A stretch of 64,000 nucleotides of DNA from Candidatus Promineifilum breve (GTDB taxonomy: Bacteria > Chloroflexota > Anaerolineae > Promineifilales > Promineifilaceae), in the NCBI RefSeq assembly GCF_900066015.1, contig NZ_LN890655.1, positions 3,326,726 to 3,390,725 of the forward strand, written 5' to 3'. Below, piece by piece: positions 7,413-32,339 of this stretch; position 1 is the first letter of the stretch, and every line of letters begins with the position of its first letter. The notes beneath the pieces are model-generated. The model made no database searches. It was not told where the DNA came from and saw only the letters and a list, made by a program, of their open reading frames with translations. A program made the position numbers and the translations under genes.

Positions 7413-8605
7413 AGGGCAAGCGCGTGGCTCTGGTGGTGCAACGCTACGGCGAGGAGGTCAACGGCGGGGCCGAGATGCTGGCCCGCTGGCTGGCCGAGCG
7501 GCTGGCGAACATGGTGGAGACCCGGGTCATCACCACTTGCGCCGTGGATTATCTGACCTGGGACAACGTCTATCCGCCCGGCGAAAGCGAGTTGAACGGC
7601 GTGCGCGTGCTGCGTTTCGCCGTGGACGCGCCGCGCCATCCTGACTTCGCCCGGCGCACGGTGGCCCTGTTCGAGGAGAAGCGCACGCTGTTCGACGAGT
7701 TGCAATGGATGAAGGATCAGGGGCCCTATTCCACCGACCTGCTCGATTACATCCACGACGCCCGCGACTTATTCGACCTGTTCATCTTCGTGACCTATCT
7801 CTACCCACCGACGTTTTTCGGCCTGCCGCTGGTGGCCGACAAGGCTATCCTGGTGCCCAACGCCCATGATGAGCCGTATCTCCGCCTGCCCATCATGCGG
7901 CCCCTCTTCCACATGCCGCAACTGATCGTCTACAACACCGAGACGGAGCAAGCGCTGGTCAATGAGGTGATGCACAACCGGTACGTGCCCCAGATCGTCA
8001 CCGGCGTGGGCATCAACGTGCCCGACAACGTATCGGCGGCCCGCTTCCGGCAGAAGTTCGGCATCGACGGCTCCTTCGTGGTCTACGTCGGCCGGGTCGA
8101 TTCGGCCAAAAACGTGCCCGAACTGCTCGACCATTTCGCCCGCTTCCGCGACGAGACCGACCACGATACCAGGCTGGTGCTCATCGGCAAGTCGAGCCTG
8201 GAAATGCCGGTCCGGCCCGACATTATTCCCCTGGGCTTCGTCAGCGAGGAAGACAAATTCGACGCCATCCGCGCCGCCGACGTGCTGGTGATGCCCTCGC
8301 TCTATGAAAGCCTGTCGCTGGTGGCGATGGAGGCCTGGTTGATGGGCGTGCCCACGCTGGTCAACGGCCAGTGCGAGGTGCTCAAATCGCAGACCCGGCG
8401 CAGCAACGGCGGGCTGTATTACTACTCCTACGATGAATTCGCGGCGGCGCTGCAACGCCTGCTCGACGACGCGCCGCTGCGCGCCCAACTCGGCCGCCAG
8501 GGTCGGGCCTTCGTGGCCGCCAACTATAGTTGGGAGGTGGTCATGGCTAAGTATCGCGCCATCCTGGAGACGCTGATGCCGCGGCCGAGGGAGGGGCATG
8601 GCTGA
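7406..8605 (+). CDS. GT4-type glycosyltransferase
   Basis: 399 residues. The start is GTG 7406, overlapping the preceding stop, with GAGGTGGG just upstream. The N-terminus VALVVQRYGEEVNGGAEML is the glycine-rich acceptor-domain opening typical of GT4. The C-terminal domain shows VVYVGRVDSAKNVPELL and MPSLYESLSLVAMEAWLMG, the donor-binding E-x7-E region. It lies between the two paralogous glycosyltransferases at 6357 and 8598 but is only distantly similar to them. The stop overlaps the next ATG by 8 nt. Confidence 0.88.
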   Translation: MLKGKRVALVVQRYGEEVNGGAEMLARWLAERLANMVETRVITTCAVDYLTWDNVYPPGESELNGVRVLRFAVDAPRHPDFARRTVALFEEKRTLFDELQWMKDQGPYSTDLLDYIHDARDLFDLFIFVTYLYPPTFFGLPLVADKAILVPNAHDEPYLRLPIMRPLFHMPQLIVYNTETEQALVNEVMHNRYVPQIVTGVGINVPDNVSAARFRQKFGIDGSFVVYVGRVDSAKNVPELLDHFARFRDETDHDTRLVLIGKSSLEMPVRPDIIPLGFVSEEDKFDAIRAADVLVMPSLYESLSLVAMEAWLMGVPTLVNGQCEVLKSQTRRSNGGLYYYSYDEFAAALQRLLDDAPLRAQLGRQGRAFVAANYSWEVVMAKYRAILETLMPRPREGHG

Positions 8606-9689
8606 GCGCGCCCTGCATCAATTCACCGAGGGGGCCTACATCGGCGACGCGGTCAGCGACCAGGTTTTCGCCATCCAGCGCTGGCTGCACGATTTGGGCT
8701 TCGCCTCGGAGGTCTACGCCGAGCGCATCCAACCCGAACTGACGGGGCGGGTGCGGCCGGCCCGCGACTACCGGCCGGGGCCGGGCGAAAGCTGCCTCAT
8801 CCACCACCACGCCGTCGGCTCCGAGATCGCCGAGCGGCTGATGGCGATTGGCCTGCCGCAACTCCTCATCTACCACAACATCACCCCGCCCGAGTTCTTC
8901 GCCTTCACCGACCCGATTCTGGCGACCCATCTGCACAAGGGCCGCCGCCAACTGGAGGCCATGCGGCCCAACACGCTGTTGGCCCTGGGCGATTCCGGCT
9001 ACAACGCCCGTGAGTTGGCCGCCCTGGGCTACGACAAGACCGGCGTGTTGCCCATCGTCCTGGACGAAAGCCAGTTCCGCGCGCCGCTTAACGAGACGCT
9101 GGCCGCCGAATGCGCCGCCGCCCGGCCGCTGGTGCTGTTCGTCGGCCGCTTCGCGCCCAACAAGCGGCAGGAAGATCTGCTGAAGCTCCACCACTGCCTG
9201 CGGCGCATCCTGCCCACGGCGCGGCTGGCGCTGGTCGGCAATACCGATTTCACCGATTACGTGGCCTGGCTGCGGGCGCTGGCCGGCGATTTGGGGCTGG
9301 GCGATGACGCCGTGCGCATCACCGGCCACGTGAGCCACCGCGACATGATCACCTACTACCGCCGCGCCGACGTGTACGTGTCGATGAGCGAGCACGAGGG
9401 CTTCGGCAAGCCGCTGATCGAGAGCATGTATTGCGGCTTGCCGGTCGTGGCCTACGCTTCGACGGCCGTGCCCGACACGCTGGGCGAGGCGGGCATCCTC
9501 TTCCACCGCAAGGATTTCGAGGGGCTGGCCGAACTGATCGCCGCGCTGCTGGCCGATGAGCCGTTGCGGCGGCGGGTCATCGCTCGCCAGACCGGGCGGG
9601 TGCGCGCCTTTCTGGAGCCGCAGGTACGCCGGCAATGGGAAGCGCATTTGCAATCGGCCGGCCTCCTGCCGGGTGGGGCGGGGCAATGA
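8598..9689 (+). CDS. GT4-type glycosyltransferase (paralogue of 6357-7412)
   Basis: 363 residues. It aligns almost end to end with the product of 6357-7412: ALHQFTEGAYIGDAVSDQ at the N-terminus, HHHAVGSEI, LIYHNITPPEFF, FVGRFAPNKRQEDLLKL and SEHEGFGKPLIESMYCGLPV. The conserved FVGRFAPNKRQEDL and SEHEGFG motifs place it in GT4. The pair probably arose by duplication and now adds related sugars in the same glycan. It overlaps its neighbours at both ends (ATGA-type overlap at 9686). Confidence 0.88.
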   Translation: MAERALHQFTEGAYIGDAVSDQVFAIQRWLHDLGFASEVYAERIQPELTGRVRPARDYRPGPGESCLIHHHAVGSEIAERLMAIGLPQLLIYHNITPPEFFAFTDPILATHLHKGRRQLEAMRPNTLLALGDSGYNARELAALGYDKTGVLPIVLDESQFRAPLNETLAAECAAARPLVLFVGRFAPNKRQEDLLKLHHCLRRILPTARLALVGNTDFTDYVAWLRALAGDLGLGDDAVRITGHVSHRDMITYYRRADVYVSMSEHEGFGKPLIESMYCGLPVVAYASTAVPDTLGEAGILFHRKDFEGLAELIAALLADEPLRRRVIARQTGRVRAFLEPQVRRQWEAHLQSAGLLPGGAGQ

Positions 9690-10954
9690 GCGACACCCCC
9701 CTCCACGTGGCGTTTGTTACCCCGGCCTACCCGCCGCTGATGGGCGGTGGCGAGCGTTACGCCGCGGCGCTGGCTCGCGGGCTAGTGGCCGCCGGGGCGC
9801 GGGTCACGGTCGTCACCAGCGCCGCCACAACCGAGGCCGACCTGTGGCAAGGCGCGGCCGGCGCGTCGGATGCCATCGAGGACGGCGCGCGCGTCATCCG
9901 CTTGCCCGTGTTGCCCACCCCCCACGGCCGGCGCGGTCTGCTGTTGTGGCGCAAGGCGATGGTGCTGCTGTCGGCCTTGCCCGGCGATCAGGCGGCGTGG
10001 CTGACGGGCATGGCCCGGCGCGTGCCCGCCATCGACGGGCTGGCCGAGACGCTGGCCGGGTTGGCCGACGTTGACGTCTTTCATGCGTTTAACCTGTCCT
10101 GGGAACGGGCGATGGTGGCCGCCCACGCCCACAGTCGCGAGGTGGGCCGGCCGCTGTTCGTCACCCCCTTCCTGCATCTGGGCGAGGGCCACGACCGCGT
10201 GGCCCGCAACTCAACGATGGATCACCAGTTGCGCATCATGCGCGAAGCCGACCGCCTGCTGGTGCTGACGCGCGTCGAGGCCGACGGGCTGGCCCGCTAC
10301 GTCTATGGGCCGGAGCGCATCTCCGTCATCGGCGGCGGGGCCGACGCGCCGCCGGCCGACTTCGCCGCCTCGCCCTATTTCGCCGCCGACCACCCCGAAG
10401 CGCGCGGTGAATTCGGCCTCTACATCGGCCGCCACTCCTTCGACAAGGGCGCGCTCCATGCCGCCGACGCCGTGCGCGTGTTGCGGCGGCGCGGGCGGGA
10501 TATTGCCCTGCTGCTCATCGGCGCCTCCACGCCGGAGTTCGAGCGCTACCGGCGGCGGCTGTCGCCCGAAGATCGTGCCGCCATTCGGCCGCTGGGCGCG
10601 CTGTCCGACCGCGACAAGCACGCCGTGCTGAACCGGGCCAAATTCCTCATGTTGCCGTCGCGCAGTGATTCGTTCGGCATCGTCCTGCTGGAAGCGTGGG
10701 CGCATGGCGTGCCGGTCATCGCCGCCCGCGCCGGGGGCATTCCCGGTGTGGTCGACGACGGCGCGACGGGGCTGCTGGTGCCCTTCGCCGATGTGGATAA
10801 CCTGGCGATGGCCGCCGAGCGCATCCTGGGCGACCCGATGTTCGCCGAGCGTCTGGGCCGGCAGGGGCGCGAAAAGCTGGTGGCCGGCTATCATTGGGAC
10901 GTCGTCGTCGAACGGGTGCTCGGCCAGTACCGCGCTCTGCTGGACAAGTCGTAG
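9686..10954 (+). CDS. GT4-type glycosyltransferase
   Basis: 422 residues from ATG 9686, which forms an ATGA overlap with the upstream stop; an in-frame extension to 9635 is inside the previous gene. It opens with VAFVTPAYPPLMGGGERYAA, the GT4 acceptor-domain signature, and carries YIGRHSFDKGALHAADAV and PSRSDSFGIVLLEAWAHGVP in the donor domain. The RAGGIPGVVDDGATGLLVP stretch is typical of the family's C-terminus. A soluble or peripheral membrane enzyme acting on the growing oligosaccharide is expected. Confidence 0.9.
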   Translation: MSDTPLHVAFVTPAYPPLMGGGERYAAALARGLVAAGARVTVVTSAATTEADLWQGAAGASDAIEDGARVIRLPVLPTPHGRRGLLLWRKAMVLLSALPGDQAAWLTGMARRVPAIDGLAETLAGLADVDVFHAFNLSWERAMVAAHAHSREVGRPLFVTPFLHLGEGHDRVARNSTMDHQLRIMREADRLLVLTRVEADGLARYVYGPERISVIGGGADAPPADFAASPYFAADHPEARGEFGLYIGRHSFDKGALHAADAVRVLRRRGRDIALLLIGASTPEFERYRRRLSPEDRAAIRPLGALSDRDKHAVLNRAKFLMLPSRSDSFGIVLLEAWAHGVPVIAARAGGIPGVVDDGATGLLVPFADVDNLAMAAERILGDPMFAERLGRQGREKLVAGYHWDVVVERVLGQYRALLDKS

Positions 10955-10964
10955 TCGCCACGCC

Positions 10965-12248
10965 ATGCGTATCCTCCACCTCGTCCATCAGTACCCGCCC
11001 GACCACCTGGGCGGGACGGAACTCTATACGCGGGCGCTGGCCCGGCGGCAGGCGGCGGCCGGGAATGAGGTGGCCGTGTTCTGTCCGGAGGAAGGGGATG
11101 ATAGCGGCGAACCGGCCGTCGAGGATGGCGTGCGCGTCTATCGGGCGGGCGGTGGGCGGCGCGGGCGGCTGGCCGTTTTCCTGAGCCTGCTGGGTTCGGG
11201 CCGGCTGTCGGCGGCCTTCGATGCCGTACTGGCCGCCGAGCGGCCCGACGTTGTCCATGTGCAACATCTCATGGGCTTGCCCGTGGGCCTCATCGACACA
11301 CTGCGCGCCGCGGGCATCCCCTACGTCATCACGCTCCACGATTACTGGTACGGCTGCGCCAACGCCCAGCTATTGACCAATTACGATGCGTCCCTGTGCG
11401 CCGGGCCGAACGCGCGGTTCACCAATTGCGGCCGCTGCGCCCTGGCCCGCGCCGGGTTGGGCGGGCCGGCCGCGGCCGGATCGTTGCCCGCCCCGCTGAT
11501 GGCCCGGCGCTACCGGCTGCTGCGCGAGGTTTTCAGCGGCGCGGCCCAGGTGATGGCCTCCACACCGTTTGTGCTGCGCGCTTATGGCGGCATGGGTTTC
11601 CCCCTGGAGAAGGCTCGCGTCCTGCCCCTGGGCATTGACGTATCGGCCGCCGACGTGGCCGCCGCCCGGCGCGCCCGCGACCAAAAAGCGCCGGATGGGC
11701 CTTTTCGTGTCGGCTACGTCGGCGGGCTGAGCCGGCAAAAGGGCATTCATGTTTTGGTGGCGGCCATCAATCGGCTGCCGGCGGGCGTGACCTGCGCCAT
11801 CTATGGCCCGACCGACGCCTTTCCGGAGTACGTGGCCGAGTTGCGGCGGCTGGCGACCCACCCCGGCATCCGCTTCATGGGGCCGGTGGAGCGCGCGGCG
11901 CTGTGGCCGGCGTTGGGCGAGCTGGACGTGCTGGTCGCGCCGACGCTGTGGTACGAGACCTACGCGCTCATCGTCCACGAGGCATTTGCCGCCGGCCTGC
12001 CTGTGGTCGCCTCGCGGATCGGCGTGCTGCCGGATGTGGTGCGCGAGGGCGTGGACGGCCATCTCTTTCCGCCCGGCGACGCGGAGGCGCTGTCGGCCAT
12101 CCTGCGCCGTCTGATGGAACAACCGGACGAGCTCGCCGTTCTGCGCGCCGGACAGCCGGCCATCGTCACGATGGACAGCCATGCCGCTGAGATCGATGGC
12201 GTGTATCGCGCATTGCCGGCGGGCGTTAAGCCGATGCTCCGGCGCTAG
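10965..12248 (+). CDS. GT4-type glycosyltransferase
   Basis: 427 residues from ATG 10965; the longer in-frame reading from 10665 only shadows the preceding gene. It begins MRILHLVHQYPPDHLGGTE, a standard GT4 opening. A Cys-rich insert (HDYWYGCANAQLL, then CAGPN and NCGRCALA) is seen in a subfamily of GT4 enzymes and could bind a metal or form disulfides. The donor site has YVGGLSRQKGIHVL and TLWYETYALIVHEAFAAGLP. It is the last gene of the glycosyltransferase run and begins 10 nt after the previous stop. Confidence 0.88.
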   Translation: MRILHLVHQYPPDHLGGTELYTRALARRQAAAGNEVAVFCPEEGDDSGEPAVEDGVRVYRAGGGRRGRLAVFLSLLGSGRLSAAFDAVLAAERPDVVHVQHLMGLPVGLIDTLRAAGIPYVITLHDYWYGCANAQLLTNYDASLCAGPNARFTNCGRCALARAGLGGPAAAGSLPAPLMARRYRLLREVFSGAAQVMASTPFVLRAYGGMGFPLEKARVLPLGIDVSAADVAAARRARDQKAPDGPFRVGYVGGLSRQKGIHVLVAAINRLPAGVTCAIYGPTDAFPEYVAELRRLATHPGIRFMGPVERAALWPALGELDVLVAPTLWYETYALIVHEAFAAGLPVVASRIGVLPDVVREGVDGHLFPPGDAEALSAILRRLMEQPDELAVLRAGQPAIVTMDSHAAEIDGVYRALPAGVKPMLRR

Positions 12249-12298
12249 GTGCAGGGCCTTCTCCCCTTCGTGTTCTTCTCAATGATCTCTGTGTCCGC

Positions 12299-12327
12299 TT
12301 GTCATTCCCCGCCGCCTACAGTACGAT
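12299..12327 (+). promoter_or_regulatory. Candidate sigma-70 promoter for the DinB gene
   Basis: TTGTCA (12299-12304), a 17-nt spacer and TACGAT (12322-12327) lie 40 nt upstream of ATG 12367. Spacing is ideal and four to five positions of each hexamer match consensus. It would start transcription near 12334 and separate the DinB gene from the glycosyltransferase operon. Not experimentally shown. Confidence 0.45.
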
Positions 12328-12366
12328 CATGCCCGATCCCAATTCGCATTGGAGAGGAGTCGCGGT

Positions 12367-13401
12367 ATGGAATCGACCGACACCCCCATCACCCCCCAGC
12401 GAGCGCAATTGCTGGGCCAACTGGCCGCCGAGCGCGCCTTCTTGCTCCTCCGCCTGGAAGGGGTCGGCGAAGAGGCGTTGACCCACGACCCGGTCTTCGA
12501 GGGCTGGACGATCGCCGGTCTGTTGGCCCATCTGGCCTACTGGGACGCCTTCGCCGCCGACCGCCTGATGAAGCTGGCCGAGGGCCGGGTGAGTGACATC
12601 CGCCCGCTGGACAGCCACGACACCATCGAGGGGCGCAATCAGGCGATGCAAGCGCGCTTCGCCGGCCTGACCTTCTCTCAGGGGCTGGCGATGTCCCAGA
12701 AGGAGCGGCGCGGCCTGCGTCTGGCCCTCGCTCGCGTGACCGACGCCATGCTGGAGACCCCCGTCCGGCTGCGGCCCGGCCGGCAGAGCACGCCGCGCAT
12801 CTGGGCGCGCTGGTCCGCCCGCCACGACGCCCAACACGCCGCCGATCTGGCGCGCTGGCGGGCCAATTACCCGCCCAATCATCCCTCGCTGCGCGTCATC
12901 CACCGCGACCTGTTGCCGCCGCTTCTCAGCCTGTCGCGCCACGAGTTTATGGCCTTGGCCGCCCTGATCCCCGCCGCCGAGCGCGAGACGCGGCCAATCG
13001 AGGGGCAATGGACGCTCAAGCAAGTCATGGGCCATATCATCGATTATGAAATGATGGGCATTGTCGCCCTGGCCGCTATCGACGCCGGGCGCGAGCCGGA
13101 ATACGAGAGCACCATCCCCGATTCCGATGCCTTCAACAGTTTACAGGCTGATGGTTGGCAGGCGCGGCCGTGGGCCGAGGTGTGGTCGCTTCACCAACAA
13201 GTGCGGCAGACGCTGCGGCAACTGGCCGGCCGGCTCGATGACGCGGCGCTGGCCCGGCCGTTCGTGGCCCCCTGGCTGGGCACGACGACGGCCTGCGGCT
13301 TCCTGCTCGACATGGCCCAGCACGAGCAGGAACATGCCGACGATCTGCGCCGGGTACTGGGCGTGAAGCCTCTGCCGCGCCGCCTGGGCCGGGCCGGTTA
13401 A
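12367..13401 (+). CDS. Double DinB-domain protein
   Basis: 344 residues from ATG 12367; GGAGAGGAG sits 6-7 nt upstream, so this is preferred over a TTG at 12349. Two four-helix DinB-like domains follow one another. Domain 1 has LLAHLAYWD and RHDAQHAADL; domain 2 has VMGHIIDYE and QHEQEHADDL. Each keeps the three-His metal site typical of DinB/YfiT metal-dependent hydrolases or thiol-dependent transferases. Tandem fusion is less common than single-domain members (~160 residues). Possible roles are bacillithiol/mycothiol-type transfer or detoxification; the substrate is unknown. Confidence 0.82.
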   Translation: MESTDTPITPQRAQLLGQLAAERAFLLLRLEGVGEEALTHDPVFEGWTIAGLLAHLAYWDAFAADRLMKLAEGRVSDIRPLDSHDTIEGRNQAMQARFAGLTFSQGLAMSQKERRGLRLALARVTDAMLETPVRLRPGRQSTPRIWARWSARHDAQHAADLARWRANYPPNHPSLRVIHRDLLPPLLSLSRHEFMALAALIPAAERETRPIEGQWTLKQVMGHIIDYEMMGIVALAAIDAGREPEYESTIPDSDAFNSLQADGWQARPWAEVWSLHQQVRQTLRQLAGRLDDAALARPFVAPWLGTTTACGFLLDMAQHEQEHADDLRRVLGVKPLPRRLGRAG

Positions 13402-13415
13402 GGTTTGCCGGGGCC

Positions 13416-14168
13416 ATGCGTGAGCAACTAGAGCGGCAGGCCGGGGTGCTGCGCTCGTTGGCGATCTACTATGCCCCCGGCCGGGTGCGCCGCCTGAGCC
13501 GCTTCTATGCCCCCTTCATCCGCCCCGGCGACCTCTGTTTCGACGTGGGCGCCCACGTGGGCAACCGTGTGGCCGCCTGGCGGCGGCTGGGGGCGCGGGT
13601 GGTGGCCGTGGAGCCGCAGAGCCACCTGCACGGCTGGTTGCGCCGCCTCTATGGCCGTTCACCCGACGTGACGCTGGTTCCCTTCGCCGTGGGGGCCGCG
13701 CCGGGGACGGCCGTCCTGCGCCACGACCCGCGCAATCCGACCGTCTCCAGCCTGTCCGATGAATGGATCGCCGCCGTGGGCCGCGATCCGTCGTTTGCCG
13801 GGGTCAGCTGGTGGGCCGCCGAGACCGTGCCGGTGACGACGCTCGACGCGCTCATCGCCCAATACGGCCGCCCCGTCCTATGCAAAATCGACGTCGAGGG
13901 GTTCGAGGCCGAGGTCTTGCGCGGCCTCGGCCAACCGCTGCCGGTCATCGCCTTTGAGTACATCCCGGCGGCCATGAGCGTCGCCGCGAACTGTCTGGCC
14001 GAGTTGGCCCGGCTGGGGGCGTATGAGTTCAACTGGTTCAGCGGCGAGAGCCACCGCTGGGCGTCGCCGGGCTGGCTGAGCGCCGCGACGATGGGCCGGC
14101 GATTGGCGGAGTTGGCCGCCGGGCGCGCTTCCGGCGATGTGTTTGCCCGCCTGGTCTCAGTCGCCTGA
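13416..14168 (+). CDS. FkbM-family methyltransferase
   Basis: 250 residues. The SAM-binding loop is CFDVGAHVGNRV near residue 38, followed by VVAVEPQ, and the late motif CKIDVEGFEAEVLRGL is diagnostic of FkbM enzymes. Unlike the FkbM protein at 4439 it has no N-terminal extension. FkbM proteins commonly methylate sugars of exopolysaccharide or glycolipid, which fits the glycan cluster upstream. Its last 12 nt overlap the convergent MFS gene. Confidence 0.88.
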   Translation: MREQLERQAGVLRSLAIYYAPGRVRRLSRFYAPFIRPGDLCFDVGAHVGNRVAAWRRLGARVVAVEPQSHLHGWLRRLYGRSPDVTLVPFAVGAAPGTAVLRHDPRNPTVSSLSDEWIAAVGRDPSFAGVSWWAAETVPVTTLDALIAQYGRPVLCKIDVEGFEAEVLRGLGQPLPVIAFEYIPAAMSVAANCLAELARLGAYEFNWFSGESHRWASPGWLSAATMGRRLAELAAGRASGDVFARLVSVA

Positions 14169-15413
14169 GGCCGGGGCGTGGGCCAGGGCGCGCGGCGACT
14201 TCGCGGCGTGGGACGTATAGAATAGCCACAACCCGACCGCCGACAACAGCCCCACCCCGCCAAAGACCAGCCAGGGCAGCGCCGGTAGTTGCCGTTGCGC
14301 CGCCACATCGACCAGCGAACCGCCCAGCACGTGGCCCAGCCCGCCGCCGACGGCCATCGCCAGCGAGCCGACGCCGAAGTAGGCCCCGCGCGCCCGGTCG
14401 TCGGCCATCTCGGCCGTCACCGTCTGGGCGCTGGGCGTCGCCAGCACCGAGCCGAGGGAGAAGAAGAACAGGCTGACGTAGAAGGCCACGACCGTCTGGC
14501 TGAGGGCCACCAGCCCCATGCCCAGGGCCATGCTGATCATGCCGGCGATGATCGTCGGCGTCGGCCGCAGGTAGCGCTGGGCCAGCCGCAACGCGGGCAC
14601 TTGCAGCACAATCGCCAGCACGGCGCTGACCGTGAACATGATGCCGACGCTGCTGTCCAGCCCGGTCAGATGCTTGATCTGCAACGGCATGGCGATGGAC
14701 AACTGCACCCACATGAACCAGTAGCCCATCATCAGGACGGTGAAGGCGACGAAGGGCAGGTCGCGCCCGGCCAGCCGCAGCCCGGCCCGCATCGTCTGCG
14801 GCGTGGAGCAGACGCTAATCGGCGGCAGAAAGGCCAACGTCACGAAGAAGGCCATCATAAAGAACGCCGCCGAACCCAGACCGACCATCTGGAAGTCGTA
14901 ACGGATCAGGAACGCGCCGATGAGCGGGCCAATGGTGCGGGCCACGTTTTGCAGGATGCCCAGGCGGCCGTAGAGTTCGCTTAGCTGCTCTTCGGGGGCC
15001 AGCGCGGCCAGCGTCGCCCGTTGCGGCGCGTCGAACAGCGCCCCGCCGATGGCCGCCAGGAAGCCCGACAGCATCAGCAGCCAGGGCACGGCGGCGTACC
15101 CCATGATGACAAAACTGACGGCGCGAATGAGCACCCCGGCCAGGATCAGCCGCTTGGGGCCGAAGCGGTCGGCCAGCGCCCCGCCGAAGACGGTCAGGCC
15201 CTGCTGGGCGAATTGGCGCACGGCCAGCACCAGGCCGATGTAGGCCGCCGCCCAGCCCAGCTTATCGACGTAATGGACGGAGACCAGGGGAATGATCAGG
15301 AAGAAGCCCGCGTTCATCAAGAAGGTCACCGCGAATACGGTGTAGAGTCCGCGGCGGCGGGCGGCCGGGGACAGATCGCTGACAGACTGTTGCATAATGG
15401 TTGATTTTACCAC
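14157..15413 (-). CDS. Major facilitator superfamily transporter
   Basis: 418 residues with about 12 hydrophobic helices. The loop between helices 2 and 3 reads GALADRFGPKRLILAG, the MFS signature motif A. Other MFS marks are the central cytoplasmic loop and the paired six-helix halves. It resembles drug-efflux-type permeases (YajR/MDR-like) in general pattern, but no substrate can be assigned. Two starts are possible: GTG at 15413 and ATG at 15395; neither has a clear ribosome binding site. It overlaps the convergent FkbM gene by 12 nt. Confidence 0.85.
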   Translation of the reverse strand: MVKSTIMQQSVSDLSPAARRRGLYTVFAVTFLMNAGFFLIIPLVSVHYVDKLGWAAAYIGLVLAVRQFAQQGLTVFGGALADRFGPKRLILAGVLIRAVSFVIMGYAAVPWLLMLSGFLAAIGGALFDAPQRATLAALAPEEQLSELYGRLGILQNVARTIGPLIGAFLIRYDFQMVGLGSAAFFMMAFFVTLAFLPPISVCSTPQTMRAGLRLAGRDLPFVAFTVLMMGYWFMWVQLSIAMPLQIKHLTGLDSSVGIMFTVSAVLAIVLQVPALRLAQRYLRPTPTIIAGMISMALGMGLVALSQTVVAFYVSLFFFSLGSVLATPSAQTVTAEMADDRARGAYFGVGSLAMAVGGGLGHVLGGSLVDVAAQRQLPALPWLVFGGVGLLSAVGLWLFYTSHAAKSPRALAHAPASGD

Positions 15414-15419
15414 AAATCA

Positions 15420-15482
15420 GACCGGACAGGTCGGCGGGCGGCGTCTGTTCAATCGTTGCTAAGCCCGCCGGCCTGTCCGGTC
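15420..15482 (-). terminator. Long hairpin downstream of the kinase gene
   Basis: Arms 15420-15439 and 15463-15482 form a 20-bp stem with one mismatch (GACCGGACAGG outer part) and a 23-nt loop, 7 nt after the kinase stop on the minus strand. No long T run follows, so it may stabilise the 3' end or act as a Rho-type/processing signal rather than as an intrinsic terminator. Confidence 0.5.
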
Positions 15483-15489
15483 GGAGAAG

Positions 15490-18400
15490 TTAAGGGCAGA
15501 GGGGATTGCCGACGTCGGCCCAGGTGTTGGCCTGAGTGCCGGAGGCCGTGGCCGGGAAGGTGGCCGTGTCGCCGGTGTAGAAGACCTCGGCCATGAGGCC
15601 AAACGGGTTCGTCAGCGCGCCCAGTTCGGCCGTGGCGTCGATGGACAGTTCGACCGCCCATTGCCCGCTGCCCGGCTCGCCCACGACCGATGTCCAGTTG
15701 GTGGAGGTGAAGTTGGAGTTCCATGCCTGGCCGTCGGCGTTGCTGCCAATGCCGGCCCATATCAATCGCGAACCGTCGCGGTTGACCTGGAAGAAGCGAT
15801 CGGCCGTGTCCGGGTCGCCGCCGTTGTTGGTCGTGTCGATGTAGAGGCGGGCCGAATCGGCCGGGTCGTTCACGTTGTCATTGATGAGATAGGCGAAATA
15901 GAGGCGGCTCGCGTCGCGCACGCCGTAGACGCGGACGATGCGCTCCGGCCCCACCACCGCCGGCTGGAAGGTGAAGAGGGGCGTGCCCGGCCACTCGGTG
16001 CCGATGTTGAGCGTGCCGTCGAGAGTGGGCGGGGCCAGCACACAGGTCAGAGTGATGGCCGGCGCGGCGGTCGTGGGCGTGGGCGAGATGGTCGCGGTCG
16101 GGGTGGCCGTCGGCGTGGCCGTGGCCGTGCCGGTGGCGGTCACCGTGGCGCTGGCCGTGCCCGTCGGGGTGATCGACGGGGTGGCCGTCCAGGTGGCTGT
16201 CGGCGGCAGCACCGTCAGCGTCGGCGTCTGGGGCGTCACGGTAGGCGGATTGGGCACCAGCGGGTCAGTCCCCTGGGCCACTTCCAGCCCGTCGGAAATG
16301 CCGTCGCCGTCGCCATCGGGCGAGCGCGGGTTGGTCTTGTGTGTGTTGACCTCGTCGAAATCGCTCAGGATGTCGGCGTCGGTGTCGCGGTTGCGCGGGT
16401 CGGTGGAGTAGATGAGCACCTCATCGCCGTCGTTCAGGCCATCGGCATCGGTGTCGGGATTATTGTTTTCGGTGTTCAGGAGGGATTCCTGCCTATCGGC
16501 CAAACGGTCGCCGTCGGTATCCCCATCCACGGTCTGGGTGCCGGCCACGTTGGTGGCGGCGCTGATCTGGGTCGCCACGACCATCGTCTGCGCCGCCGCG
16601 ACCGAGGTCTGGGTGGCGGCCATGAATTCAAACGAAAGCGTGGGCGTGGGCGTGGCGGTGGCGCCGATGCCCAGGAAGCGCCCCCAATTGGAAAACAACA
16701 ACATACCGCCTAACGCGCAGAGGAAGATGGCTAAAAAGGCCGCGCCATAGACCACGGGGGAGGGCAACAGGGCGCGCACGTGGGCCTCGCCGGGCAGCGC
16801 GCGGCGGCCGCCCTCGGCCCCCACCACCTCGACCTCGAAGGGGTAAACGTCGCCCTCGCCGAACCAATTCGTCTCGCGCGGCTCCAGCGCCAACTCGATA
16901 TTGGCCGATTGGTTGGGTTGCAGGGTGATGCGGTCGCGCTCGCCGCGAAAGCGGATGACTTGTTGCAGATCGCGGCCGGTCACCTTGAACTCGGTCGCCT
17001 TATTGCCGTTGTTGTGAATGGTCACCAGCGTGCGCCCCGGAACGCGCAGCTCGGTCGGCTCCATGACCGCCTCGAAGCTCACGAAGCCGCTGACGGTCAG
17101 GGCGGCGCTGACGCCGATCTTGGCCTCCGGGTAGTGCTGCGAGACCACCTCGAACCGCACGCGCTGCCGGCCGGAGGGAACGCCTCGCCCGCGCGGCGGG
17201 CTGATGGTGATGGGCACGGAGACCGTCTGGCGCGGCGGCACGGTGATGAACTCGGCCGGTTCCTCGACCCAACTCGGATCGAGACCCCGCACGCGCACCG
17301 TCACCTTGTCTTCCACGTCGCCGCGATTCTCCACGTCGACTTTCACCTCGACCCGCTGGCCGGGGTCGGCGGTGATGGTGTTGCGGGCCAGGTGGAGGGC
17401 GAGCGGCGCGTCGGCCCCGGCCGGCGGCAGGGTCGGTTGTTCGGCCACCACGGCCCCGGACGAAGAGGCCGAGCCGGACGCGGGCGGCGCGGCCGAAGGT
17501 GGTGCGGCCGAAGGTGGTACGGCCGATGGCGGTACGGCCGAGGCAACCGCCCCAGCCCCCAACCCGATCAATCCGGGCGTGATGGGCGCGGAAATCGGCT
17601 CGACCTGTTTGGCCTGGGGGTCGGCCACCGGCGTCTCCGGCCCCTCCAGCAGCATCTCATACGGGCCGATGCGCAACAGGGAACCAACGGATAGGGGCGT
17701 CGGCTCTTCCGGCCGCAGGCGGTGCTCATTGAGCCACGTGCCATTGACGCCGCCCAGATCGACCGCCTCCCAGCCCAGCGAAGTGGCCTGCAAGCGCGTG
17801 TGGTGGCGCGAAACGCCGTCGGCGGGCAGCACAATGTCGTTGTCCAGATTGCGCCCCAGGGTGATGACCGCCCGCGTCAAGGGCACAATGCTGTCCTGGT
17901 GGCCGGGGGTGTGGATGTGCAGCTCAAAACCGGCCGGCGGCTCGGCCACCTGATCGAGGATGTCCAGTTCCTGATGCAGCATGACCCGCGTCGGCAAGCC
18001 CTCCAGGGCCACGAAGGCGCTCCGCAGGGCGTCGGCCATCTCCGCGCCGCTGGCGAAACGATCAGCCGGCGATTTAGCCAGGGCGCGCACCAGCAGCGAA
18101 TCGATAATCGGCGGCACTTCGGGCCGCAGGCTGCTGACGGGCGGCGGCTGAACGCCGTTGCGATGGGCGGCGATGGCCTCGGACAGCGTCTGGAAGGTGA
18201 ACGGCATCTTGTTGGCGATCAACTCGTAGAGCACGACGCCCAGCGAGTAAAGGTCGGAGCGGCTATCCAGTTCGCGCCCCTCGCATTGCTCCGGCGACAT
18301 GTAGGTCGGTGTGCCGACGGTGGCCCCACTCTGGGTCAGGCTGACCCCCTCTTGCAGCTTCACCAGCCCGAAATCGGTCAGCAGGGCGCGGAACGGTTGC

Positions 18401-27230: not shown

Positions 27231-28544
27231 TTAGAGTCGCACGACCCGCGCCGTGCCGCCGCTCTTGACCGCGTTGCGCGCGTCGACGATGAGGCGGGCG
27301 TGGTTGACGATCCATGACCAATCGTAGGCGCTGTGGTCGGTGACGACGACGACGCAATCGGCCGCCGCCAGCAATGCTTCATTCAACTCCACCGATGACA
27401 GGCTATAACCATCAAATCGCACCGTGGCGATGTGGGGGTCGTTGTAGGCCACGTCGGCCCCGCGCTCGCGCAGCAGGTGGATCACATCCAGCGCCGGGCT
27501 TTCGCGCACGTCGCCCACGTCCCGCTTGTAGGCCGCGCCCAGCACCAGGATACGGCTGCCGTTGACCGCCTTGCGCTCGACGTTGAGTGCATCGGCCACC
27601 TTGCCGACGACGTAATCGGGCATGTGGCTGTTCACTTCGGCGGCCAGCTCGATGAAGCGCGCCGTATAGTTCAGCGTGCGCAGCTTCCAGCTCAGGTAAT
27701 GGGGGTCGATGGGGATGCAATGCCCGCCCAGGCCCGGCCCCGGATAGAAGGGCATGAAGCCATACGGTTTGCTGGCCGCCGCGCCCACCACTTCCCAGAC
27801 GTTCAGCCCCAGCTTGTCGCACATGAGGGCGACCTCGTTGACCAGGCCGATGTTGACCGCGCGGAAGGTGTTCTCCAGCAGCTTGACCATCTCGGCCGTG
27901 GCCGTGCTGCTCACCGGCACGGGCTGGTCGACGACCGTGCCGTAGAGGGCCACGGCGACCTCCAGGCAATCAGGCGTCACGCCGCCGATGACCTTGGGGG
28001 TCGTGCGCACGGTGTAATCGGTGCGACCGGGGTCGATGCGCTCCGGCGAGAAGGCCATGAAGAAGTCGCGGCCCACTTCCATGCCGTTATCGGCGAAGCG
28101 CGGCAGGACGATCTCGTCGGTCGTGCCGGGGTAGGTGGTGCTCTCCAGGACGATCAGTTGGCCGCCGCCCGGCGGCATATGGGCCGCCAGACAATCGGCG
28201 GCGTCGACGATGTAGGAGATATCCGGGTCCTTGGTCTTGCGCAGCGGCGTGGGCACGCAGATGGAGATGGCGTCGGCCGCGGCCAGATCGGCGTAATCGG
28301 TCGAGGCCCGCAGGCGACCGGCGGCCAGCAGCGGCTCCAGCACGGCGTCAGGCACGTCCTCCACGTAACTCCGGCCGCGATTGAGTGCGGCCACCTTGCC
28401 GGCGTCAACGTCGACGCCGATGACGGTGAATCCTTCCTCGGCAAAGGCCACGGCCAGCGGCAAGCCGACGTAACCCAGCCCCACGATGCCGATGATCGCC
28501 TCCCGGTCGGCGATTCGTTGTAACATGCGCTGTTTGCGATCCAT
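27231..28544 (-). CDS. Nucleotide-sugar dehydrogenase (UDP-N-acetylglucosamine 6-dehydrogenase type)
   Basis: 437 residues from ATG 28544, where AGAGGA is 6 nt upstream; ATG 28550 is too close to that site. NAD-binding GLGYVGLPLA begins at 22. The catalytic Cys is in GPGLGGHCIPIDPHYLSWK. The fold consists of the UDPG/MGDP dehydrogenase N, central and C domains; the central helix EMVKLLENTFRAVNIGLVNE and the long catalytic motif resemble WbpA/TviB enzymes rather than UDP-glucose dehydrogenase. The product, a UDP-uronic acid, would feed surface glycan synthesis. Confidence 0.88.
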   Translation of the reverse strand: MDRKQRMLQRIADREAIIGIVGLGYVGLPLAVAFAEEGFTVIGVDVDAGKVAALNRGRSYVEDVPDAVLEPLLAAGRLRASTDYADLAAADAISICVPTPLRKTKDPDISYIVDAADCLAAHMPPGGGQLIVLESTTYPGTTDEIVLPRFADNGMEVGRDFFMAFSPERIDPGRTDYTVRTTPKVIGGVTPDCLEVAVALYGTVVDQPVPVSSTATAEMVKLLENTFRAVNIGLVNEVALMCDKLGLNVWEVVGAAASKPYGFMPFYPGPGLGGHCIPIDPHYLSWKLRTLNYTARFIELAAEVNSHMPDYVVGKVADALNVERKAVNGSRILVLGAAYKRDVGDVRESPALDVIHLLRERGADVAYNDPHIATVRFDGYSLSSVELNEALLAAADCVVVVTDHSAYDWSWIVNHARLIVDARNAVKSGGTARVVRL

Positions 28545-28550
28545 ACTCAT

Positions 28551-28733: not shown

Positions 28734-30065
28734 TCAACCGAGACCGAGCAGTCGCGCGACGAGGCCCGGCAGCAGATTGGGCCACAGGCCGCACAACACC
28801 GCCAGACCGAGCAGAACGAGCGTCAGGCTAACTTCGGCCGGCCCCAGCGGTGGGCCAACCGGCGGGCCGTCCACCGCTGGCTCGACCACCGGCCGGCGGA
28901 GCAGGGCGCGCCAGGCCACGAGCATTCCCAGCAACATCGCCGCCACCAGCCCGATTGCCGGCCACGGGCCACCCGGCGTGCCCGCCGCCAGCAACGCCCA
29001 TCGCCCGCCGAATCCGGCCGTCAGGGGCAGGCCCACAAGCGACAGCAGACCGAACGCGAAGGCCGCCGTTGGTAGGACCGCCCAGCGGGAACCGGGCTGT
29101 GGCGGATGGGAGGCTGCGAAACGCTCCATCCCCAGGGCGATCAACAGGAGACTCAGGCAGCGGCTGATGAGCGCCGGCAGCGCCAGCAGCAGCCCGTCCG
29201 CGCCGGGCGAGAGCGTCGCCAGGAGGACGAAAGCCATGTCGAGCAACACCGCGCCGGCCACCAAGGCGCGGCCTTCTGCGGCACGGCCCATGTGCCAGAC
29301 ACCGACCCAGGCCGTCAGGGCGGCGCTCCAGCGCACGGCCGACTGGAAGCCAACCGCCGCCCGCGCCGCCGGGGCGTGATCCAGCAGGCCCAGCACGAAG
29401 GCCACCACGACCAGCGGCATTACCCCCAGGACGAGGGCCAACGACACCGGCGAGGCGGTTCGTCCCAGACCGGCGGCCCCGCTATAGAACGGGAAGCCGC
29501 CCAATAGCAGGAGCGCCGCCGGCAACGCATACAGCCAGCCCGCTGCGTCGCTGCCGGGCGAGGAAACGGCCAACAGCGCCGGCGCGACGGCTACGGCGGT
29601 AAATAGAAAAGTGCGCCACGTCGCCCCGGCCGGTTCGTGCCGCCCGCCATGCAGCGCGGGCACAACGAAGGCCGCGGCCACGACCAGCAGCACGGCTCCC
29701 AGACCCGGCGGATCGATCATCAGGGCCGCCGCCAGCGGGGCCAACGCCGCCAACCCGGCCGGGACGAGCGCCCGCCCGGCGGGGCGAAACCAGGCCACGG
29801 CGAACAGGGCCGCCAGTGCCGGATAGATCACTAGAAACAGCGCGCGGATAAAGGGGGTGAGGGTTAATTCCCGCCCATAGAACCCGACCGTGTTATCGGC
29901 CAACAGGCCCGTGCCCGGCTCGGCCAGCGCCAGGAGCAGCGTCAACAGGGCCAGAGCGACGAGACCGGCCGCCGTTTGCCCGCGCCGGAAGCGGCGCAAC
30001 AGCAGGGCGACGATGGCCGCCAGCGCCGGCCCAACGAGCATGACGAGGGGAAAGCCGGTCTCCAT
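28734..30065 (-). CDS. Complex I/Mrp antiporter-like membrane protein (NuoM/N-like), degenerate
   Basis: 443 residues, about 14 hydrophobic helices. The segment GGFPFYSGAAGLGRTASPVS is where proton-conducting subunits read P-x-H-x-WLP-DAH..P-x-PVS; the His and Asp are missing. SLVGLPLTAGFGGRWALLAAG matches the late GLPPTAGF motif of NuoM/N/MnhD. The strong homology pattern with few charged residues suggests a non-pumping or altered relative. It is the third gene of a three-gene minus-strand operon with 30067-30759 and 30765-32276 (1 and 5 nt spacing). Confidence 0.65.
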   Translation of the reverse strand: METGFPLVMLVGPALAAIVALLLRRFRRGQTAAGLVALALLTLLLALAEPGTGLLADNTVGFYGRELTLTPFIRALFLVIYPALAALFAVAWFRPAGRALVPAGLAALAPLAAALMIDPPGLGAVLLVVAAAFVVPALHGGRHEPAGATWRTFLFTAVAVAPALLAVSSPGSDAAGWLYALPAALLLLGGFPFYSGAAGLGRTASPVSLALVLGVMPLVVVAFVLGLLDHAPAARAAVGFQSAVRWSAALTAWVGVWHMGRAAEGRALVAGAVLLDMAFVLLATLSPGADGLLLALPALISRCLSLLLIALGMERFAASHPPQPGSRWAVLPTAAFAFGLLSLVGLPLTAGFGGRWALLAAGTPGGPWPAIGLVAAMLLGMLVAWRALLRRPVVEPAVDGPPVGPPLGPAEVSLTLVLLGLAVLCGLWPNLLPGLVARLLGLG

Positions 30066-30066
30066 A

Positions 30067-30759
30067 TCACTCCAGGATGTCGACCGGCAGGTAGCGCGCC
30101 TGCGCCAGATAGGCCACGACCAGCGCCACCGTCAATTGAGCGACGACCAGGGCCACCGTCATGGCGATGGATTGATCCAGCAAGCCGTAATAGAGAGCGA
30201 ACCCGGTCAGGAAGAGCAGCAGCCCGATGCCCGACGGCAGCGGCTCGGCCGACGTGGTTAGCCCCACCAGCCCCAGCGCCACCAGACCCACGATGGCCGG
30301 CTCCAGATAGCCGGCGGTTTCGGGCACGACGGCCGGCAACAAACCCGGCGCGCGCCAGACCCAGACCGTGGCGACGATGGCCAACACGGCCGCCGCCAGA
30401 CGCACCACGGCGCGATTGGTGACGGCAAAGCGGCCGACACGGCGCGAGCGCGCCAGCCCCAGCCGCGCCATTTCCTCGGCCGACAGCCCGGCCGGCGGGC
30501 GGCCCCAATTCACCTGCCAGGCCGTGACCAGCAGCATGGCGCTGACGAACAGCCCGGCCAGCGTATAGACGACGGCCAGCCGCGGATCGAGTACATCGAC
30601 GAACAGCAGCCCGGCCAGCAGGTAATGGACGAAGACGCCCAGAATGGCCGGCCGCATGTCCCAAGCGACGACGGCCACGAAGGCCGCGCCCAGCAGCACG
30701 ACGACCGACGGCATACCCCGCAAAAAGGCCAATTGGTCGAGCAGATCGAAGATTGTCAT
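30067..30759 (-). CDS. Small polytopic membrane protein of the NuoM/N-like operon
   Basis: 230 residues from ATG 30759; a longer frame to 31335 overlaps the upstream gene and is not supported. About seven hydrophobic helices are visible (VVVLLGAAFVAVVAWDM, AVYTLAGLFVSAMLLVTAW, TVALVVAQLTVALVVAYLA). The final SAEPLPSGIGLLLFLTGFAL helix region is loosely reminiscent of NuoJ/NuoK/HyfE-type small subunits, but I cannot assign a family. It sits between two NuoM/N-like proteins, so a small partner subunit of the same membrane complex is the best inference. Confidence 0.6.
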   Translation of the reverse strand: MTIFDLLDQLAFLRGMPSVVVLLGAAFVAVVAWDMRPAILGVFVHYLLAGLLFVDVLDPRLAVVYTLAGLFVSAMLLVTAWQVNWGRPPAGLSAEEMARLGLARSRRVGRFAVTNRAVVRLAAAVLAIVATVWVWRAPGLLPAVVPETAGYLEPAIVGLVALGLVGLTTSAEPLPSGIGLLLFLTGFALYYGLLDQSIAMTVALVVAQLTVALVVAYLAQARYLPVDILE

Positions 30760-30764
30760 GGCGT

Positions 30765-32276
30765 TCAGGCCAGCCACAGCAGCAGGAGCAACAGCCCCAG
30801 CAGCCATAGCAGACCATACTCTCCTTCCAGGATCGCCAGCGCGTCGCCCAGGGCCTCGTAGGTGGCCCGGCCCGCCTGACGGGCGCGTTGAGTGAGGCGT
30901 GTCGCCGCCGGCGGCGGCAACGTCGCCGCCTCGCGCAGCAGGCCGCCCAGCGTCTCCGGGGCTGGCGCGAAACGGCCCAGCAACAGACCGGCCATAATGG
31001 GTAGCCCAATTGCTACCCAGACGACCACCCCCAGGCCGAGCGCGGCCGTATTGAAATGGACAAGACCGGCCAGCAGCGGCAACTGCGCCAAGCCGCGCAG
31101 CCACCCGATGCGACCGGCCGGCGCGCCGTCGTTTATTAATAATCGCGCCACGCCGAAGAGTGTCGCCAGCCATATCGTCAGCAGGATGACGGTGACGGCC
31201 AGCAATACCCAGCCGCCGGACGCCAGCCATGCCTCGTACAGCGGCGCGAGGACGCCGGAGCCGACCGTCAACGGCAGCCCGGCCACGGCCAGCAAGACGG
31301 CCGCCACGGCAATGGCTTGCGGGGTAATGGCCCAACGAACGCGCGTAACGGTGCCTTCGGACGGGCGCAGGGCATTAGCGACGACCAGCAGTGCCGGGGC
31401 GAAGACCGCCAGCCGCGCCGCCGGCAGCAGCGCTGCCGGGCCGGCCCAGACCGCGGCCGTCAGGAGCAGCCCACATAGGGCCAAACCCAACGCCTGCGGC
31501 AACCGCTCCGGCCACTGATACCAGGCGCGCCACAAGCCGATGACCAGCCCCAGCAGGCCGAGCGCGGTGGCCGCGGCCACGGCCGCGCCGGAGGGGACGA
31601 CCCCCCGCAGCGCGGCAAGCAAAACCGCCGCCCCGGCCACCAACGGCAGCCCGCCGCGCAACAGGTCTAACGCTGTTTTCTCGCTGGCCGTAAGGTTGCC
31701 GGGCGGTTGGACGCAGAACAGGAGCACGGCGGCCAACAGGCTGAACGGCAGCGCCGCTGTGGGCAGCACCCCGGCCAGCCACAGGCTAAAAAGCGCCGGG
31801 GCAAAGGGCAGCGCCGGGATCAGGCGGCGGCCGAGATCGTCCGGCCCACGGCTGCGGTCGAAGGCGATGGATGCGGCCCAGACCAGCGCCAACAAGCCCA
31901 GCCCCAACACCCGCGTCCAGGCGTCGGCCGCCCAGACCACCGGCAGCGCCGCCGCCGCCAGCGCGAATAGCCACACGGGTTGCTGTTCGTCGCCGTTGCG
32001 GCGATGCAGCGCGAAATGGGCGACAGCGGCCAGCAACAGCAGCAGCGTGATGCCGGTCAATTGCCAGGCCGGTTCGTCGATGGCCCATTGACGCCCGGCA
32101 AAGGCCCAGGCTGTGGTGGCCGAGGCGGGGCGCGCCAATAGCCAGAGGATGAAGACGGCCGCCGGCAGGGCGAGGATCATCGCCCAGGTGAACCGGGGCC
32201 GGCCGCGAATGACCGCCAACAACCCGGCGGCCACGACCAGCGCCACCCACAAAACGGCATAGGCTGCAAAAGACAT
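30765..32276 (-). CDS. Complex I/Mrp antiporter-like membrane protein (NuoN/MnhD-like), degenerate
   Basis: 503 residues with about 14 hydrophobic segments and a charged loop near the C-terminus (LTQRARQAGRATYEALGDA) before a last helix. AVAGLPLTVGSGVLAPLYEAWL recalls the GLPPTVGF-x-GK motif of NuoN/MnhD, but the Lys is absent. No HxWLPDAH motif is seen. It is the first gene of the three-gene operon and probably forms a membrane complex with the next two. Function is unknown; a complete NuoA-N set is not present in the window. Confidence 0.62.
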   Translation of the reverse strand: MSFAAYAVLWVALVVAAGLLAVIRGRPRFTWAMILALPAAVFILWLLARPASATTAWAFAGRQWAIDEPAWQLTGITLLLLLAAVAHFALHRRNGDEQQPVWLFALAAAALPVVWAADAWTRVLGLGLLALVWAASIAFDRSRGPDDLGRRLIPALPFAPALFSLWLAGVLPTAALPFSLLAAVLLFCVQPPGNLTASEKTALDLLRGGLPLVAGAAVLLAALRGVVPSGAAVAAATALGLLGLVIGLWRAWYQWPERLPQALGLALCGLLLTAAVWAGPAALLPAARLAVFAPALLVVANALRPSEGTVTRVRWAITPQAIAVAAVLLAVAGLPLTVGSGVLAPLYEAWLASGGWVLLAVTVILLTIWLATLFGVARLLINDGAPAGRIGWLRGLAQLPLLAGLVHFNTAALGLGVVVWVAIGLPIMAGLLLGRFAPAPETLGGLLREAATLPPPAATRLTQRARQAGRATYEALGDALAILEGEYGLLWLLGLLLLLLWLA

Positions 32277-32308
32277 AGAGGAGCGATTCTAGACCCGATG
32301 CGCGCCAC

Positions 32309-32339
32309 AGGCAACGCCACTTCAGAAAGGCGTAAGGTT
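32309..32339. repeat. Possible diverged copy of the 34-bp palindrome
   Basis: GCAACGCCACTTCAGAAAGG followed by CGTAAGG resembles the 34-bp repeat (CAACGC-ACTTCAGAAAG-GCGT) with small insertions or deletions. It lies between the patatin stop and the membrane operon start. The match is imperfect, so the identity is tentative. Confidence 0.4.

Follow-up and report, generated by a model that had tools for sequence, protein, structure and literature searches.

A putative free-standing HyfDEF-type membrane module with altered proton-path residues in Candidatus Promineifilum breve and its relatives

Complex I probably arose through the joining of separate modules. In a window of 64,000 nucleotides from Candidatus Promineifilum breve (Chloroflexota; Anaerolineae; contig NZ_LN890655.1), which covers 3.327-3.391 Mb of a 5.03 Mb genome that is 99.96% complete (labelled G000), three adjacent genes, here termed A, B and C, appear to encode a membrane module of the HyfD-HyfE-HyfF type without catalytic subunits. 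The same gene order and subunit types are found in hydrogenase-4/formate hydrogenlyase-2 (FHL-2); in its passages on these proteins, one study calls HyfE NuoK-related, describes HyfDEF as dispensable for H2 production and terms the biochemical function of the HyfDEF proteins undefined (PMC7384014). The Ehr complexes, in the passages devoted to them, have a large subunit that is without metal ligands (PMC6349859, PMC7304191). For Chloroflexus aurantiacus, the passage on complex I genes in one genome account gives two gene sets and mentions no third cluster (PMC3150298). A literature search of partial coverage, with most subscription journals outside it, returned no account of a HyfDEF-like operon that stands on its own.

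All three genes are on the minus strand and follow one another head to tail, A first, then B, then C. The first-pass annotation, made from the sequence alone, had proposed a three-gene membrane operon at 28734-32276, and these limits proved exact, with the genes touching or nearly so: 5 bases separate A from B and one base separates B from C, the start of B being the ATG at 30759.

30765..32276, minus strand: gene A, 503 amino acids (aa), NuoL/MrpA/HyfB-like antiporter-type subunit
30067..30759, minus strand: gene B, 230 aa, HyfE-like seven-helix subunit, its N-terminal part also MbhD-like
28734..30065, minus strand: gene C, 443 aa, NuoN/NuoM/MrpD/HyfF-like subunit that has lost the Glu of transmembrane helix (TM) 5 and the Lys of TM7 and of TM8

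Searches with the single window proteins gave little or nothing, so family profiles were needed. None of the three matched Pfam; in NCBIfam, PRK12662 was found at E 0.0022 for C, and two other matches (one for C, one for A) were non-significant; phmmer of C against PDB sequences reached E 0.26 at best. Family alignments were built from relatives, with 20 sequences for C, 19 for B and 17 for A. Profile C matched complex I NuoN at E = 6.6e-29, along with many NuoM/N/L and MrpD chains, and 13 of the 20 C members matched PF00361 individually. Profile A matched MrpA at E = 3.6e-18 as well as NuoL/M/N, with DabB2 as a weak match, and PF00361 was matched individually by one of the 17 A members. When enlarged families were compared by hhalign, C matched NuoN, NuoM and HyfF at a probability of 99.8%, and A matched NuoM and NuoL at 99.1-99.2%. 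The structure predicted for C (mean pLDDT 84.0, pTM 0.88) matched NuoM/N/MrpD folds with a TM-score of 0.74 and an E value, that of the complex I NuoM match, of 3.3e-9. Two broken helices in this model, at about residues 190-192 and 344-350, correspond to TM7 and TM12, the stretch aligned to TM7 being its least confident part. The derivation from complex I/Mrp-type subunits suggested at first pass is thereby borne out: sequence and predicted fold both show C to be a subunit of the NuoM/NuoN/MrpD type, and A, judged on its sequence profile, is a NuoL/MrpA-like member of the same Proton_antipo_M superfamily (NuoL/M/N, MrpA/D homology). Chance similarity to complex I/Mrp is ruled out by the profile E values, the hhalign results and the fold match of C. 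The subfamilies of A and C are best left broad, as the hhalign scores of C against NuoN, NuoM and HyfF (232, 220 and 223) are too close to assign it to one of them, and HyfD, HyfB and NuoL are likewise not separable for A.

The partner between the two antiporter-type genes had been described as a seven-helix protein and left unnamed. Its predicted structure (mean pLDDT 87.5) has seven long helices and a short N-terminal one, and its name can now be refined. Against a HyfE family profile, built from 14 of 30 returned loci plus E. coli, B aligned from end to end over 177 columns with P = 2.8e-5 (reversed controls 0.19 and 0.38). Comparisons of B with a lone HyfE sequence, NuoJ or NuoK were not significant, the NuoK alignment containing some wrongly sized open reading frames that were left uncleaned. 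The likeness of B to MbhD was modest (0.00041 against 0.02 in the reversed control), and profile B found MbhD among PDB sequences at E 0.0039. Structure searches with B were non-significant: the best Foldseek match was NuoL at E 0.31, and the best VIA Z scores were those of designed helical bundles. Given the end-to-end likeness of B to HyfE and the order hyfD-hyfE-hyfF of the E. coli genes, the trio can be read as a HyfDEF-type module, with a HyfE-like subunit between two antiporter-type subunits. Unlike in hydrogenase-4/FHL-2, HyfG- or HyfI-type catalytic genes are not seen beside it: no PF01058 or large-subunit profile match was found in the window, where HyfC/NuoH received no search of its own, and the trio has lost canonical charges.

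This loss of charges concerns the residues thought to carry protons through the antiporter-type subunits. The key residue numbers used for E. coli NuoM, NuoN and NuoL are those we take to be standard, and the letters at those numbers agreed in all three sequences. Mapping onto complex I subunits, as the first-pass annotation had proposed, showed that key charged residues of the path are lost. The late GLP-x-T-x-G segment is kept in both proteins, as had been noticed, with GLPLTAGFGGRW in C (where C ends) and GLPLTVGSGV in A. The HxWLPDAH stretch, reported as missing, is indeed gone from both window copies (PFYSGAAG in C, PPGNLTAS in A), but this does not hold across the family: the His of HxW, Tyr in the window copy, is retained in 23 of 37 C proteins, so the loss of the motif is partly private to the window copy. 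The Lys of GLPPTAGF-x-GK, also reported as missing, is gone as well, its TM12 position being Leu343 in A; in C it is replaced by Arg355, alongside a new Asp/Arg pair. In window A, the positions of the TM5 Glu, TM7 Lys, TM11 His and TM12 Lys hold Gly, Leu, Ala and Leu, and the TM8 Lys too is absent from both A and C; in window C the TM5 Glu, TM7 Lys and TM8 Lys are all lost and the TM12 residue is Arg.

Among the 37 C proteins, eight retain the TM5 Glu and none has the TM7 or the TM8 Lys; at TM7, Arg occurs in six, all from Chloroflexia-type loci, and the TM12 position is Arg in 21, His in six, Lys in three and Glu in one. The A family (n=31) holds the TM5 Glu in two members, Lys in two and Arg in 14 at TM7, and Lys in one and Arg in 16 at TM12. 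The A protein of locus L135, whose genome does not belong to the window's class, still has all three charges (TM5 Glu, TM7 Lys, TM12 Lys), and the loss therefore looks gradual. In the part of the literature that sets out the Thermus thermophilus path, this path comprises a Glu123-Lys204 ion pair, Lys235, His292 and Glu377 (PMC11496545); by this model, as far as it is given there, the sequences of the window proteins indicate that they have neither the ion pair nor the central Lys nor the relay His.

Three charged positions of C stand where the second half of the canonical path would run:

29238..29240, minus strand: encodes Asp276 of C, aligned with the canonical NuoM His322; an acid in 28/37 C proteins (24 Asp, 4 Glu)
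29160..29162, minus strand: encodes Arg302 of C, aligned with the canonical TM11 His (NuoM His348); Arg in 28/37
29001..29003, minus strand: encodes Arg355 of C, aligned with the canonical TM12 Lys/Glu (NuoM Glu407)

In the C model these residues sit inside helices 265-283, 288-317 and 350-361. An acid at 276 and Arg302 occur together in 26 of the 37 proteins, neither occurs in seven and only one in four (Fisher P = 1e-4, ignoring kinship). Outside the Chloroflexia-type loci and L135, the pair is found in 26 of 30.

The trio is widespread in the window's class, where profile B matched 225 of 298 genomes; in a phylum-wide sample it matched 70 of 301, and an internal stop occurred in only one of the B matches listed. 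A non-random set of 75 loci was screened with the profiles, giving B and C in 70 and all three genes in 52, of which 48 pass a strict spacing rule that the window fails only since the script moved the start of B to an earlier start codon. Several loci, among them L121, L125, L128, L129 and L275, have B and C without a detected A, either a two-gene form or one with a very divergent A. In one homologue search, of 27 matches, that at L057 (G012) is a group-4-type hydrogenase gene and not a family member, and that at L060 (G007) is uncertain. Among 27 comparisons of close relatives, dN was below dS in all 24 with a defined dS, and those with dS under about 1.2 gave dN/dS values between 0.03 and 0.39. 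The trio is thus under purifying selection in relatives. Pseudogenes are disfavoured by these values.

The first-pass annotation had also stated that the rest of complex I is absent, which is true of the window and untrue of the genome. In G000, the surroundings of the cassette hold no match to a small subunit (PF01058) or a large subunit; the closest such matches are more than 1 Mb away. The window has no match to PF00420 (MrpC/NuoK) or PF13244 (MbhD), whose matches in G000 fall only at 0.30, 2.016 and 2.94 Mb. Elsewhere in G000, PF00361 genes are present at about 300 kb, 2.016-2.032 Mb and 2.945-2.952 Mb, together with matches to the NuoB, 49-kDa/large-subunit and NuoK families. An incomplete genome as the reason for missing complex I is ruled out by the completeness of G000 and these genes.

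Among 20 genomes with B that were selected for a test with PF00346, six (G118, G090, G130, G073, G227 and G576; 90-99% complete) gave no match, and G149 gave a sub-threshold match only. Of 11 genomes compared with PF00361, four gave one match or none: the sole match of G118 and of G130 is the cassette's own C, G090 has none, and G149 has one whose relation to the cassette is not established. Since there are genomes without PF00346 and with a PF00361 match only in the trio's own C, the trio can be maintained where these draft genomes show no partner of the complex I, Mrp or group-4 hydrogenase type.

Surveying the neighbourhoods of homologues, which had been advised at first pass, showed that the trio order is kept in relatives and that catalytic genes lie beside it in Chloroflexia-type loci. 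In Roseiflexus-, Chloroflexus- and Herpetosiphon-like genomes, a PF00346 protein of 361-369 aa (E 1e-30 to 5e-39 in the three tested) precedes the trio, and the Roseiflexus-like locus continues after it with one protein that resembles NuoB (PF01058, E 3.4e-15) and another that weakly resembles NuoH. The NuoH-like gene of Chloroflexia-type loci has a weak likeness to NuoH (P 0.015; reversed control 0.86), measured with an alignment of nine rows, of which one (L272) is in the wrong frame. Both CxxC motifs, with all four ligand-type cysteines, are present in five of seven Chloroflexia-type large subunits, and the C proteins of these loci are likewise without the TM7 and TM8 Lys. As the same trio occurs alone or beside NuoD-/NuoB-like genes, the free-standing and catalytic forms are two states of one module, either of which may have come first.

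Compared with the Ehr complexes, the cassette shares antiporter-type and HyfE-like membrane genes; it differs in that no large or small subunit, cysteine-less or otherwise, adjoins it in G000, and in that most Chloroflexia-type large subunits keep their cysteines. As in Mrp (Mnh/Sha) antiporters, A resembles MrpA, C resembles MrpD and the N-terminal part of B resembles MbhD and the C-terminal domain of MrpA; the trio consists of three genes only, and neither an MrpC gene nor the MbhD domain of MrpA was matched at the same locus. With respect to NuoL/NuoM/NuoN, C is alike in fold and profile, with helix breaks predicted in the TM7 and TM12 regions, and A in profile; the trio differs by the lost TM5 Glu and TM7/TM8 Lys, the replaced TM11/TM12 residues and the lack of adjacent redox subunits.

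In light of these comparisons, we lean, only a little beyond even, towards the explanation that the trio forms an autonomous, non-redox, charge-remodelled three-subunit complex that is free-standing and does not pump canonically; this leaning applies to the reading as a whole, including the assembly of A, B and C into one complex and the movement of an ion, both of which we infer. The subunits would lie side by side as they do in HyfDEF or in the distal arm of Mbh/Mrp, and B would link A to C in the manner of HyfE-type subunits. The antiporter fold would be kept, the redox module would be absent in the window's lineage, and the canonical route (TM5 Glu-TM7 Lys, TM8 Lys, TM11 His, TM12 Lys/Glu) would be dismantled, the second half of the path in C being perhaps rebuilt around Asp276, Arg302 and Arg355. 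Because the coupling ion pair and the central Lys are gone and there are no redox subunits, canonical proton pumping by the trio seems unlikely; it is also unlikely that the three residues relay protons as Lys and His do, and they would serve either as a structural lock or as an ion path of fixed charges. That the trio occurs alone and has been retained argues for a function of its own, most likely gradient-driven, in which an ion would be carried or conducted down its gradient along the remodelled TM10-12 half. The earlier suggestion of a remodelled, perhaps non-pumping membrane complex is probably right, supported by the lost key charges and the redox genes absent at the locus; its other proposal, a novel ion channel, may apply. 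A bolder form of the idea, which we regard as doubtful, is that a detached complex I arm has become a new class of ion channel or carrier, near-universal in one class of bacteria, in which a fixed Asp-Arg-Arg path has taken the place of the Lys/His relay for gradient-driven, perhaps anion, conductance with no redox enzyme.

Several points weigh against the favoured explanation. The genomes tested for PF00346 were picked by small size and weaker B matches and not randomly, the genomes in which complex I was judged to be absent are drafts, and the dN/dS comparisons covered relatives, with the window's own genes excluded. A was not detected with B and C in 23 of the 75 loci, some at contig ends; away from contig ends it may be lost or too divergent, and gene A may be dispensable. 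The acid276/Arg302 pair, which may be a mere structural salt bridge, occurs in none of seven C proteins, namely six from Chloroflexia-type loci and that of L135.

Other explanations account for parts of the evidence. The trio could dock, as an accessory membrane arm or as an alternative one, on the complex I or the group-4 hydrogenase encoded elsewhere in the same cell, as the other complex I-type loci and the group-4-type hydrogenase locus of G000 would allow, and as the single operon of trio and 49-kDa-like large subunit in Roseiflexus-, Chloroflexus- and Herpetosiphon-like genomes would suggest; six of the 20 selected B-bearing genomes have no 49-kDa/NiFe large-subunit match, however, and no such partner gene adjoins the cassette in G000, which makes docking unlikely. 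We also think it improbable that the trio works as a cation/proton antiporter through other protonatable residues at shifted positions: the window A and C are without the TM5, TM7 and TM8 charges, and no C protein has the TM7 or TM8 Lys, even though some relatives retain candidates, with the TM5 Glu in 8/37 and a TM12 His or Lys in 9/37 C proteins, a TM7 Lys or Arg in 16/31 A proteins, and the three charges of L135 A. An envelope-linked permease or scaffold, serving for example polysaccharide synthesis, is quite unlikely, since the neighbours that point to it, an NDP-sugar dehydrogenase gene and a NusG/RfaH-like gene, are restricted to one family. That the trio is a decaying relic of a lost hydrogenase-like complex would fit a stepwise loss of pumping charges and the finding of catalytic genes beside it only in Chloroflexia-type loci among those seen, but purifying selection in relatives, the presence of B in most genomes of the class with a single internal stop among the matches listed, and the conserved new residues make this very improbable.

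The envelope-type neighbours were found in the window's family, where, in a phylum-wide screen of 63 loci, an NDP-sugar dehydrogenase gene follows the trio on the same strand in 10 loci and a NusG/RfaH-like gene in nine; the neighbours in other families differ. The window has such a dehydrogenase at 27231-28550, with no NusG-like gene between it and C. In L042, a NusG/RfaH-like gene lies after C at 10047-10652. One further feature was marked upstream of the trio:

32286..32314, minus strand: candidate promoter just upstream of gene A, a weak match with 9/12 consensus bases

Additional loci of related type were seen in the course of the survey. In G000, locus L164 (288000-307500) looks like a group-4 [NiFe] hydrogenase at about 8582-15483 and 15935-16435 of that locus, with NuoL-, NuoM-, NuoB- (SCNGCDIE), large-subunit-, NuoH-, MbhD- and maturation-protease-like genes. 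The complex I genes of this genome are split, with NuoB/CD/I-like genes at about 0.66 Mb (L163, 649-668 kb) and, at 2.94-2.95 Mb (L167, 2938-2957.5 kb), a membrane arm that includes two NuoM-like genes; another complex I set lies at 2.005-2.020 Mb (L165/L166, 1999-2038 kb), and one more PF00361 gene follows at about 2.032 Mb. In L131-L134, L138, L265 and L268, all from Chloroflexus/Roseiflexus-type genomes, the trio stands in an operon with a hydrogenase-like large subunit that has four ligand-type cysteines and with a NuoH-like gene, followed in six of them by ABC transporter genes, and this operon possibly encodes an uncharacterised group-4-like enzyme. Loci L270-L272, from Roizmanbacteria, Magasanikbacteria and Bryobacterales metagenome-assembled genomes, are Ehr-like in gene order, with a large subunit without the usual cysteines and a HyfE-like gene of 219-231 aa.

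On the reading favoured here, a HyfDEF-type module would have been cut free and kept, with its proton machinery altered, across most of one bacterial class. A separate function of the HyfDEF-type module thereby becomes directly testable, and the natural variants at every key proton-path residue would provide tests of models of complex I pumping.

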